Shown: in pieces, positions 36,707 through 40,410 of the stretch
Layout of the letters: each line of letters starts with the position of its first letter
Numbering within the stretch: the first letter of the stretch is position 1
Source: Labrenzia sp. R4_2
GTDB lineage: Bacteria; Pseudomonadota; Alphaproteobacteria; Rhizobiales; Stappiaceae
Direction: 5' to 3'
NCBI RefSeq assembly: GCF_017743865.1
Contig: NZ_JAGHRJ010000006.1
Location: forward strand, 62,001-126,000
DNA: 64,000 bases
Position numbers and translations under genes: made by a program
Notes under the pieces: generated by a model
Databases searched by the model: none
Seen by the model: only the letters and a program-made list of their open reading frames with translations
What the model was told of the DNA's origin: nothing

Positions 36707-37714
36707 TCAGCGTGCCTTGTTGGATGCAATCGCGGCATCGATGACATCGGCCCCGATATCATCGCGGAACATATCCCAGACCGGCTTCATGGTGGTGACC
36801 CACTCATCGCGCTTATCCGGGGTCAACGCCCGCACAACTCCACCGTTTTCAATGATGCTTTGCTTGCTGTTTTCATTGATCGCGTTTGACCGTGCGTTGA
36901 AGTCATCAGAGACCTCTGTGAAGATCGTCATAAACTGGTTGCGGACATCTTCATCCAGGCTGTTCAACCATTCCTGAGATGTTACCGCGAGATAGGCCAG
37001 AAGCTGGTGATTGGTCTCCGTTGCGCCGTCCTGAACCTCAAAGAACCTCTGGGTGTAAATATTGGACCAGGTGTTTTCCTGTCCATCCACAACGCCCATC
37101 TGGAGGGCCTCAAAAACATCCTTAAACGCCAGTTTTTGCGCAGTGCCCCCCATGGCTTCGACCATGGCAACTGCAACATCGGAGGGCTGGACACGGAACC
37201 TCAAGCCTTTCGCATCATCTGGTACGATCAGGGGCCTATTCGCCGAAAACTGTTTGAGACCGTTGAATAGGTATCCCAGACCAACAAAGCCGTAATCGGA
37301 CATCGCACCGAGCAGCTCTTGTCCCTTTTTGCCGTCAGTGAAAGCTGTCACAGCGTCCATGTTGGAGAAGACGAACGGCAGATCGAACACCCTGTATTTC
37401 AAGGTGTAAGCTTCGAATTTGGAAAGCGATGGGGCCGCCAGCTGGACGTCCCCCAACAAAAGCGCTTCCATCACCTGATTGTCGTCGAAGAGCTGCGATG
37501 ATGGAAACACCTGCATACAGGCAGTGCCGTTCATCTCGGCATTGACACGGTCCGCTAGCGCGCTTGCCATTTCCCCTTTGGGATGGCCTTCCGCTGCGAC
37601 GACGTGACTGAACTTTATGACGATTTCGTCCTCATCGCAGGCAGCAAAGGCATGCGATACACCGAATAAGAAGGAGGACAAAACCGCAGCGGTGAAGCCG
37701 GCGATCTTTCTCAT
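36707..37714 (-). CDS. TRAP transporter substrate-binding protein (DctP)
   Basis: 335 residues with a signal peptide (about 1-24), so periplasmic. DctP-family segments: IKFSHVVAAEGHPKGEMA, LGDVQLAAPSLSKFEAYT and GLRFRVQPSDV, the last holding the conserved Arg that contacts the ligand carboxylate. GVVDGQENTWSNIYTQ is also typical. Ligands are usually C4-dicarboxylates or other organic acids. No DctQ or DctM membrane genes are next to it, so it is an orphan. GGAGG precedes ATG 37714. Confidence 0.92.
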   Translation of the reverse strand: MRKIAGFTAAVLSSFLFGVSHAFAACDEDEIVIKFSHVVAAEGHPKGEMASALADRVNAEMNGTACMQVFPSSQLFDDNQVMEALLLGDVQLAAPSLSKFEAYTLKYRVFDLPFVFSNMDAVTAFTDGKKGQELLGAMSDYGFVGLGYLFNGLKQFSANRPLIVPDDAKGLRFRVQPSDVAVAMVEAMGGTAQKLAFKDVFEALQMGVVDGQENTWSNIYTQRFFEVQDGATETNHQLLAYLAVTSQEWLNSLDEDVRNQFMTIFTEVSDDFNARSNAINENSKQSIIENGGVVRALTPDKRDEWVTTMKPVWDMFRDDIGADVIDAAIASNKAR

Positions 37715-37835
37715 ATGTGCTCCTCCCAGGCTTTCATGAACAGCATTGCGTGTGTCGAACGGCGTCGACCCTAACCCAATGCCTCTTGCCGAACATTAAA
37801 CACGCAGGAAGGAAAACCCTTTGTTGAAACTGCGA

Positions 37836-38759
37836 TCAGTTCGGCTGAAGAGCCCCGTTTCCGGTGTCGTGCCGGATCGACAGCGCCATCCCGCGCAGCT
37901 TATCCGGATTCCGCATAATGAAAATCTGATCAATCAAGCCGTCCGCGCTGTATCCAAAATTGACGACTGAGACCAGTTTCCCGCCTTCATAAAGGGCCAG
38001 ACCTTCAATTCCGTTTATGATCCTGCGCTCCAGAGTTCCGCCTGAGCCAACCCAGAGCCGCGACATGATCTTTGCAACGTATTTGGAGACATCTCGGCTG
38101 CCCGAAAGGATCCTGCCGAGGGCCGTCGCCTTACCACCACCATCTGACTGATATTGCACACCTTCAGACAACAGCCCGGCCAACTGTTCCGTCGAACCGG
38201 ACATCACGGCATCAAGAAAGGCTGTCAGCATCTTTTCCTGATGCTCCGCTGGCGGAACAAAACGCGCGCTTGGCCCCTGAACATGACGGCTTGCCCGAGA
38301 GACGAGCTGACGGGAGGCCGATTCACTCGTTCCGAGAACACCTGCGACCTGTCTGTGCGATTGGCCGAACACCGAATGTAGCAAGAAAGCAGCCCGTTCT
38401 TTTGGCGACAAACGTTCCATCATGTGCAGGAATGCAATTGTGAGGGATTCAGCCCGCTCAATATCGCCTTCCGGTGTTTCACCGGCTTCAATGTGCAGCG
38501 GCTCGGGGATCCAGGGGCCGACATAATCGACGCGCTTGTTGTGTGCGGATTTTAACAAATCAAGACACCGGTTGGTGCAAGCGGTCGTCAACCATCCATC
38601 CGGATTCAGGATCGCGGCACCGTCGCTGCCCTGCCACCGCAAAAACGTATCCTGCACAGCATCTTCGGCATCGGCCCAAGAGCCGAGCAGGCGGTAGGCC
38701 AGCCCCAAAAGACGGGGTCTGGCCTGCTCAAACACTTCGAGTTTCGATTGCTCGCTCAT
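37836..38759 (-). CDS. ECF41-group RNA polymerase sigma factor
   Basis: 307 residues. Sigma region 2 (about 10-75, AEDAVQDTFLRW), region 4 (about 113-160, LSPKERAAFLLHSVFG) and a SnoaL-like C-terminal extension (about 170-307) that regulates activity. Three ECF41 signatures are present: WIPEP at 83-87 in the linker, DGGGK at 206-210 and NPDK at 284-287. ECF41 factors lack an anti-sigma factor and use the extension as an intramolecular control. The gene starts one base after the stop of the AhpD-like gene, forming an operon whose promoter matches the ECF41 consensus. Confidence 0.93.
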   Translation of the reverse strand: MSEQSKLEVFEQARPRLLGLAYRLLGSWADAEDAVQDTFLRWQGSDGAAILNPDGWLTTACTNRCLDLLKSAHNKRVDYVGPWIPEPLHIEAGETPEGDIERAESLTIAFLHMMERLSPKERAAFLLHSVFGQSHRQVAGVLGTSESASRQLVSRASRHVQGPSARFVPPAEHQEKMLTAFLDAVMSGSTEQLAGLLSEGVQYQSDGGGKATALGRILSGSRDVSKYVAKIMSRLWVGSGGTLERRIINGIEGLALYEGGKLVSVVNFGYSADGLIDQIFIMRNPDKLRGMALSIRHDTGNGALQPN

Positions 38760-38760
38760 A

Positions 38761-39195
38761 TCAGTAATTCGAGATTTGAACCCGGTTCCAGAGGTTGATC
38801 ATGCCGATCGCCGCGGTCAACAAGCTGATCTCCGCTTCGGTAAAGTGTTTTCTGAGTTCCGCGCGCAGCGGTCCATAGCTTTGCTCCGACTTCATGTAAG
38901 TCAGCGCTTCGGCATACGCCAACGCGGCCTTTTCTTTCTCGCTGAAATCATCCACATGCCGCCAGACTATCAGACGTTCCAGCCGTTCACTGTATTCGCC
39001 GGCTGCCAGTGCTTCCTTGATATGCATCTTCACGCAAAAGGCGCATTGATTGATCTGTGAAACACGCAGATCGACCAGATGTTGAAGCTTTGGATCCAGT
39101 CCTTCCTTGGCAAAGGACGCCGATACGCCGCCGAGGGTCTGTGCAATTCCAGGGATCTGTTGGTGGTGGTTCACAGGTGCAGTAGTCGCAGTCAT
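38761..39195 (-). CDS. Carboxymuconolactone decarboxylase family protein, AhpD-like
   Basis: 144 residues, all-helical AhpD/CMD fold with the redox motif CAFC at 51-54 and His58 (INQCAFCVKMHIKEAL). AhpD-like members are peroxide-linked disulfide reductases. This is the usual companion of ECF41 sigma factors. The start is ATG 39195 with AGGA upstream; longer starts at 39228 or 39267 would overlap the promoter. A peroxide or redox-stress role is inferred. Confidence 0.92.
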   Translation of the reverse strand: MTATTAPVNHHQQIPGIAQTLGGVSASFAKEGLDPKLQHLVDLRVSQINQCAFCVKMHIKEALAAGEYSERLERLIVWRHVDDFSEKEKAALAYAEALTYMKSEQSYGPLRAELRKHFTEAEISLLTAAIGMINLWNRVQISNY

Positions 39196-39239
39196 TTGAA
39201 GTTCCTCATTCAGAACCTGAATTGGTTCCATACTCAAAT

Positions 39240-39266
39240 GACGACCCAGCTTTGCCGCTTGTGACA
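39240..39266 (-). promoter_or_regulatory. ECF41-type promoter
   Basis: Minus-strand TGTCACA (39266-39260), 16-nt spacer, CGTC (39243-39240): exactly the -35 and -10 elements published for ECF41 sigma factors. It lies about 45 nt before the AhpD-like start, implying autoregulation of the two-gene operon. Confidence 0.85.
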
Positions 39267-39318
39267 TGCTCTAAATTTTTTTCATCGCCTCACATGAAAC
39301 CGCAGAGATTTCAGCCTC

Positions 39319-40410
39319 TTACCCCGGCACCGGAGCGCGCTGGCGTTTGTCGATGGCGACACTCTTGATGAGGACCGTCACCGTTTTTCCAACTACCAGA
39401 CCAAGATCGGCAACCGATGCCCGCGTGATCCGGGCACGGATCGTCTGCTCGCCGACGCCGCAGAGAATTTCTGCATAAGGTCCGCTTTCTTCCGAAATGC
39501 TGCGGATCGTTCCCTTCAGCCTGTTTCGGATCGAAAGCCCTTTGAGAACTTCGGTCGCAAGCGCGACATCTCGTGCCCGAATGCGCAACCGGATTGGCTC
39601 GCCTGGCGCAGCTCCAAGGTCCGGGATCTGAATGGTTGCACCGCCAATGTCGATATGCGTAAGCCCCCATTCGCTGTCCGTGTGACTCACGGTGCCTTCA
39701 AGGAGCGCCCCGGCCTCATGCCGGCCCGTTGCCTTACCAAGATCCGTTCTGGCAAGCATCTCGGCAACCGGTCCAAAAGCCGGTGTCTGGCCATCGGACA
39801 GGATCACCAAGGTCTGGGACAGGCGAGCCACCTCTTCGATCGAGTGGCTGACGTAAAGGATCGGGATCCCGGCTTCCGCGCAAAGGCGATCCAAATAAGG
39901 GAGAATGTCATTGCGCCGGGCCTGATCCAGATTGGCCAAGGGCTCGTCCATGATCAAAAGCCGCGGATCCGACAGCAGCGCCCGTCCGATTGCGACCCTC
40001 TGACGCTCACCGCCGGACAGCGTTGCGGGTTTGCGGGCCAAGAGCGGCTGCAAACCCAATAGCTGCACCACCTCGTCCATCGAGCGTGTCGTTTTCCGGC
40101 GCCCGGCCCAACGCGCATAGGTCAGATTGGAGCGCACACTCATGTGAGGAAACAGGCGCGCATCCTGGAAAACATGCCCGATCCGCCGGGCCTGAACCGC
40201 AAGATTGATGTTCTTGTCTGCATCAAAAAGCGTTGTGCCGTTGACGGTAATCCGACCGGATACCGGGCGGATAAGACCGGCAATCATGTTGGTGAGGCTT
40301 GTTTTCCCAGCGCCCGACTGACCAAACAGGGAGGTGACACCCCCCTCGCTTTTGAACCGTGCAGTCAGCGGCAGCGCACCGACCTGGCCCTTGATATCAA
40401 CGTCAAGCAT
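39319..40410 (-). CDS. modC: Molybdate ABC transporter ATPase
   Basis: 363 residues. Walker A GQSGAGKT at 30-37, signature LSGGERQRVAIGRAL, Walker B LLIMDEPLANLD, and a C-terminal TOBE/MOP domain (about 290-355) that binds oxyanions and marks it as ModC. GGAGG lies 6 nt before ATG 40410. The start overlaps the modB stop by eight bases, so ModB and ModC are translationally coupled. A longer frame to 40461 lies within modB. Confidence 0.95.
   Translation of the reverse strand: MLDVDIKGQVGALPLTARFKSEGGVTSLFGQSGAGKTSLTNMIAGLIRPVSGRITVNGTTLFDADKNINLAVQARRIGHVFQDARLFPHMSVRSNLTYARWAGRRKTTRSMDEVVQLLGLQPLLARKPATLSGGERQRVAIGRALLSDPRLLIMDEPLANLDQARRNDILPYLDRLCAEAGIPILYVSHSIEEVARLSQTLVILSDGQTPAFGPVAEMLARTDLGKATGRHEAGALLEGTVSHTDSEWGLTHIDIGGATIQIPDLGAAPGEPIRLRIRARDVALATEVLKGLSIRNRLKGTIRSISEESGPYAEILCGVGEQTIRARITRASVADLGLVVGKTVTVLIKSVAIDKRQRAPVPG

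Follow-up and report, generated by a model that had tools for sequence, protein, structure and literature searches.

Of the ECF41 systems described in the literature, those of B. licheniformis and R. sphaeroides have been studied by experiment, covering activation of the promoter, its being the single target, the start site and the role of the regulatory extension (PMC3426412). Earlier work on Rhodobacter sphaeroides and Sinorhizobium meliloti already describes the layout, the promoter, the absent anti-sigma factor and the single target, and in S. meliloti the single target of RpoE9 is the carboxymuconolactone decarboxylase (CMD) gene located upstream (PMC6180224). Oxidants were tried as inducers in both B. 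licheniformis and R. sphaeroides, and 960 phenotype assays were run in the latter, with no reproducible outcome (PMC3426412). A WLPEP linker motif has been named for ECF41 (PMC3426412), and the motifs NPDKL and YVGPWLPEP have been named as well (PMC7730460). No report on ECF41 in Roseibium was found among the literature matches listed.

Investigating the window, that is, the whole stretch of 64,000 nucleotides of Labrenzia sp. R4_2 DNA analysed here, we read a pair of genes on its minus strand as an ECF41 operon of a common type known from the literature, with the promoter followed by the COE gene and then by the sigma gene. The operon would be self-activating and restrained by the extension of its sigma factor, and we put the probability of this reading at roughly 0.88. 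The sigma gene (37836-38759, minus strand) encodes a SigJ-type ECF41 protein of 307 amino acids, as assigned by NCBIfam, Pfam and PDB matches. It scores 287.5 bits against NCBIfam SigJ PRK09636 (cut-off 271) and 284 against TIGR02957 (SigX4), which is under the cut-off of 323; its ECF-type sigma2 and sigma4 domains match PF04542 and PF08281 (sigma70 r2 and r4_2) above the Pfam cut-off, and Mycobacterium tuberculosis SigJ (PDB 5xe7) is matched over residues 7-297 with an E value of 1.1e-43. The closest named records, from an alphaproteobacterium and an uncultured Labrenzia, are 98-99% identical, Roseibium polysiphoniae being at 56%, which suggests a genome of Roseibium/Labrenzia type; the genome of the window holds one ECF41 gene.

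The initial annotation had called the protein an ECF41 sigma factor with three marks, and all three can be read in the translation: WIPEP in the linker at residues 83-87 (38499-38513, minus strand), with I in place of the L of WLPEP, DGGGK at residues 206-210 (38130-38144, minus strand) and NPDK at residues 284-287 (37899-37910, minus strand). DGGGK as an ECF41 mark is particular to that annotation, and we did not find it named in the available passages of the ECF41 literature searched. For comparison, 101 genomes (own included) were searched for homologues with a limit of E 1e-40, which yielded 57 loci in 48 genomes, all 57 of which were read; loci were obtained from 39 of the 45 genomes of the genus, and 53 of the 101 genomes, including 6 of these 45, gave no sigma match at this limit. 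W[ILVM]PEP is present in 54 of the 57 loci and W[ILVM]P[ED] in all of them, DGGG[KR] in 46 (absent from 11), NPDK in 35 and NP[DE]K in 54.

The upstream gene of the pair, ahpD (38761-39195, minus strand, 144 amino acids), belongs to the CMD family, with an E value of 2.8e-20 against PF02627 and a match above the cut-off to TIGR00778, the AhpD core domain. The redox motif CAFC, ascribed earlier to an AhpD-like operon partner, is found as CAFCVKMH (CxxCxxxH) at residues 51-58 (39022-39045, minus strand), and this CxxCxxxH pattern is kept in 52 of 52 AhpD partners; judging from the motif, the product is probably a thiol oxidoreductase or peroxidase. A co-directional ahpD lies upstream of the sigma gene in 52 of the 57 loci, own included, and none is detectable in the other five. 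The gap between the ahpD stop and the ATG of the sigma gene is 1 nt, a spacing that recurs in 21 of the 52 loci including our own, values other than 1 nt being partly overestimated, as sigma starts were set from match ends. The longest ahpD ORF (168 amino acids) starts at 39267, i.e. within the promoter region; the ATG at 39195 is the likelier start; it is preceded by GAGGAA, and most homologues' matches begin there.

The motif TGTCACA-N16-CGTC, described in the initial annotation as equal to the published ECF41 promoter pair, is found exactly at 39240-39266 on the minus strand, 44 bases before the ahpD start, and is the sole match of TGTCACA and CGTC at N15-17 within the window, where 0.07 are expected by chance and 7 of 100 shuffles contained at least one. 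The whole genome (5.66 Mb) has 9 exact N15-17 matches against 7 for the reversed control pattern, and the relaxed form YGTCACR-N16-CGTC occurs 15 times against 10 in the reversed control. The bare pattern is thus about as frequent as background, and we rejected it as a genome-wide marker of a regulon. This background also provides the argument for regarding the promoter match as a coincidence and the operon as driven otherwise, an explanation to which we assign a negligible probability in view of the homologous loci. Within 160 nt before ahpD, the best site (N15-17) is exact in 38 of the 52 loci, while 13 loci deviate from it at one position and a single locus at two; one of the 38 exact sites has N17, and a rule admitting N16 only gives 37, 13 and 2, respectively. 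Among 10,400 mononucleotide-shuffled upstream regions (N16), no exact site and 12 within one mismatch were obtained, and this null allows for the fact that sites were chosen as the best consensus match, which favours the motif columns. Under the N16 rule, 51 of 52 sites sit 23-45 nt before ahpD; the remaining one, at 124 nt, is a misplaced N16 match of locus L064, whose exact site has N17. By itself the motif is only modestly unusual, and its position and conservation clearly raise it above chance.

Loss of the motif from loci that keep both genes had been named beforehand as an observation that would speak against the promoter. The search for such losses found 51 of the 52 promoters kept within one mismatch, and since the shuffled regions gave no exact site, the promoter assignment withstood this comparison. 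Most deviations are of one kind, with C for the first T in 11 of the 13 one-mismatch sites. G-T-C-A-C and C-G do not vary across 51 distinct promoters, and 14 of the 16 spacer columns have less than 0.65 bits; the position directly preceding CGTC clearly stands out, with T in 42 of 51. A scan for sigma70-like promoters between 37600 and 39420 found none, which is uninformative, as merely 0.9 matches were expected by chance.

RNA polymerase carrying the ECF41 sigma factor would start at or near G39233 (minus strand), the base 7 nt after CGTC; among 50 distinct promoters, 40 have G there, 7 have A and 3 have T. The start had been predicted near 39233, and this position fits both the conserved G and the start mapped in S. 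meliloti, located 9 nt after the motif (PMC3616915); if that distance applied here, the putative start would be 39231. The leader from G39233 to ahpD would measure 38 nt, against a leader of 22/23 bases following the mapped G start in both organisms of Wecke et al. (PMC3426412). Upstream of the -35 box there is an A/T tract, AAAAAAATTT (39273-39282, minus strand): across the 50 distinct promoters, the positions 10-17 nt upstream of this box have an A/T content of 0.83, compared with 0.44 over the next 100 nt upstream. Such a tract looks like an UP element. In the ECF41 text passages available (figures aside) we did not find it described, and together with the start-site G this conserved tract sharpens the ECF41 promoter model.

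Variants of the promoter region were observed in several relatives. Fifteen of the relatives' 48 distinct leaders carry a second, exact TGTCAC 7 nt downstream of CGTC (for example, L014, L021 and L028), and 8 more of the 48 have five of its six letters at the same fixed distance. A search of 385 genomes of the class for promoter and second TGTCAC together gave matches in 2. The window has TATGGA at the predicted start, so the second TGTCAC is absent there and is not counted as part of its promoter. Of the five ECF41 homologues for which no AhpD neighbour could be detected (L054, L057, L058, L063, L065), L054 has a one-mismatch motif immediately upstream of the sigma match itself. A further ECF41-CMD pair, on pB of S. 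meliloti LMB1 (L153), is divergently oriented, and its intergenic region contains the motif on each strand, once exactly and once with one mismatch.

The genome search proposed in the initial annotation concerned further targets. Six of the nine exact matches of TGTCACA-N15-17-CGTC have N16. Apart from the ahpD promoter, the N16 matches have no exact counterpart in G004 (where the surrounding DNA is possibly absent too), and none of these five recurs as an exact site in G001 or G007. G004, with a sigma factor 99% identical to ours, contains no exact N16 match except the ahpD promoter; beyond this promoter, G001 has one and G007 four, none of them among the matches of the window's genome. The three N15 or N17 matches recur in near relatives. 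None of the eight other matches has a same-strand ORF of at least 90 amino acids that starts within 190 nt, a filter that is weak because the same rule places the true promoter inside the over-long 168-residue ORF and hides it as well; we therefore give more weight to missing conservation.

The C-terminal extension spans about 145 residues after sigma4 (residues 163-307; 37839-38273, minus strand). The AF2 model of the sigma factor, made from an input alignment of the window and 11 of 19 loci, has a moderate mean pLDDT of 62.6, and Foldseek ranked SigJ and SigG1 best, with other ECF sigma factors and ketosteroid isomerases lower down. Based on these matches, the C-terminal part of the sigma factor looks NTF2/SnoaL-like; a Pfam search of the extension returned no SnoaL domain. 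Restraint of the sigma factor by the extension and an effect of its truncation have been shown in relatives (PMC3426412). As a family trait, ECF41 sigma factors are activated when the extension is shortened in part and inactivated when it is lost altogether. By analogy, the fused NTF2/SnoaL-like domain, and not an anti-sigma protein, would contact the WIPEP linker and in this way keep the sigma core at low activity, and a signal, which we would guess to be a small molecule, would release it. One mRNA would presumably cover both AhpD and sigma, and as it would be initiated at a sigma-dependent promoter, the sigma factor would raise its own amount, with a single small AhpD/CMD protein, bearing CxxC, as the output. 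Such autoregulation, which the layout and the work in other species suggest for this locus, would need basal expression of the sigma gene.

A different role for AhpD is conceivable as well, in which it takes part in sensing: its CxxC pair would control the sigma factor, making the partner a redox switch and not just a target. The co-occurrence of ahpD in 52 of 57 loci and the constancy of CxxCxxxH in all 52 partners could be read in this way, but YdfG, when co-expressed with Ecf41Bli in B. subtilis, made no significant difference (PMC3426412), and we consider such a switch very unlikely.

No anti-sigma gene lies next to the sigma gene, as had been noted from the window, the neighbours being modC, ahpD, dctP and a gene for a PPOX flavoprotein. 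The end of modC at 39319, on the same strand and 52 nt upstream of the motif, raises the question of whether the operon is mainly read through from modABC, with the ECF41 promoter adding little and the loop mostly not closed. A scan for consensus terminators (37600-39420) found none between modC and the promoter, and in genomes G003 and G033 a kinase-regulator pair stands between modC and ahpD, which is gone here; but the promoter is exact in all four genomes of the own lineage (L009-L012), and we regard predominant read-through as improbable, a self-activating ECF41 operon remaining our preferred reading. The order in G003 and G033, according to Pfam, is modABC, sensor kinase, sigma54-type response regulator, ahpD, sigma gene and dctPQM, with an MFS gene between sigma and dctPQM in G003; the neighbourhoods of the other relatives are known from matches to window proteins alone. 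In our own lineage neither the kinase-regulator pair nor dctQM accompanies the operon, and the best matches in the window's genome reach 41-42% for the G003 dctM and 55% for the G003 regulator. The dctP gene of the window (36707-37714; compared with L134 and L141) is an orphan TRAP solute-binding gene that adjoins the PPOX flavoprotein gene. As a hint to the inducer, the kinase-regulator pair and dctPQM are linked to the operon by synteny only.

The trees of the two operon genes disagree. The groupings were tested on quick trees of 42 of the 52 loci with ahpD, and the groups were picked after the first trees. In the AhpD tree, the own lineage (four loci) joins G003, G008 and G026 (SH-aLRT 99.7), and AhpD rejects the rival grouping of the own lineage with other loci of the genus (p-AU 0.011). 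The first sigma tree excludes the AhpD grouping; sigma residues 86 to the end reject it (p-AU 0.0019) and show the other grouping at 91, unstarred, whereas residues 1-80 give the AhpD grouping at 90, equally unstarred, with the other grouping not rejected (p 0.77). Residues 1-85 are closest to G003 (82%) and later parts to other clades, the identity of G003 to the own sigma factor dropping to 26-52% in the extension; around the promoter, DNA identity is highest to G003, G008 and G026 among those compared. These are signs that the sigma gene may be a mosaic, whose extension would have a history different from that of the promoter and ahpD. The species yardstick modC is 90% identical to G003, 66% to G008, 78-81% to six other loci of the genus, and 61% and 64% to two more; it agrees with the AhpD grouping for G003 only.

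A younger event is suggested by the comparison with G007, a pair that, like the groups, was picked after looking. Of the codons that specify the same residue in both genes, 22 of 156 differ silently within residues 1-162 and 56 of 118 within residues 163-300 (p 1.5e-9), and DNA identity falls to 0.74-0.82 at about 37850-38300 and is back at 0.90-0.96 beyond the end of the gene, a pattern that reads as an exchange of the regulatory extension. Among 22 pairs, the three between G007 and the own lineage show the silent-site jump at p below 1e-8 (one event), three others show it in the same direction at uncorrected p values of 0.008-0.016, and 16 show none. No close donor of the exchanged extension was found among the 48 other aligned loci. 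Fast evolution of the extension instead of exchange is a rival explanation for the older signal and less so for the silent-site jump, as mean pairwise identity among 38 loci of the genus is 0.71 in sigma2 plus sigma4 and 0.51 in the extension. That extensions are swapped by recombination among relatives, with promoter, AhpD and sigma core staying fixed and the same output thus serving different inputs, is a tentative proposal that we would not back at even odds, and the modC figures led us to give it less weight. No report on recombination of an ECF41 extension was found in the available passages of the literature matches listed. If the proposal is true, these loci represent natural domain swaps, and closely related strains with promoter, target and sigma core in common but distinct sensing domains would suit an inducer hunt well, since comparing such pairs could reveal the ECF41 inducer.

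Every element of the locus has already been published (PMC3426412, PMC6180224), and it is an ordinary ECF41 member, which bears out what has been published and extends it to one more genus, where clean examples number in the dozens; the suggested domain exchange is the part of the finding worth keeping. Among described systems, S. meliloti RpoE9/SMb20029 (ECF41) is alike in gene order, promoter motif, N16 spacing, CMD partner and C-terminal extension, and the DNA of strain 1021 reads with an A/T tract upstream of the promoter, too; in contrast to our locus it is situated on pSymB, and identity amounts to 38% for sigma and 36% for AhpD. RSP_0606-Ecf41Rsp of R. sphaeroides and ydfG/Ecf41Bli of B. 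licheniformis, likened here by description, share TGTCACA with CGTC or TGTT, the COE target, the fused extension and the lack of an anti-sigma factor (PMC3426412). Streptomyces tsukubaensis SigG1 (ECF56, 7qh5) resembles the protein in its sigma core and SnoaL-type C-terminal domain, but differs in lacking the NPDKL motif and in having a separate antagonist, RsfG (PMC7730460). M. tuberculosis SigJ (5xe7) is homologous over residues 7-297 and is the best Foldseek match.
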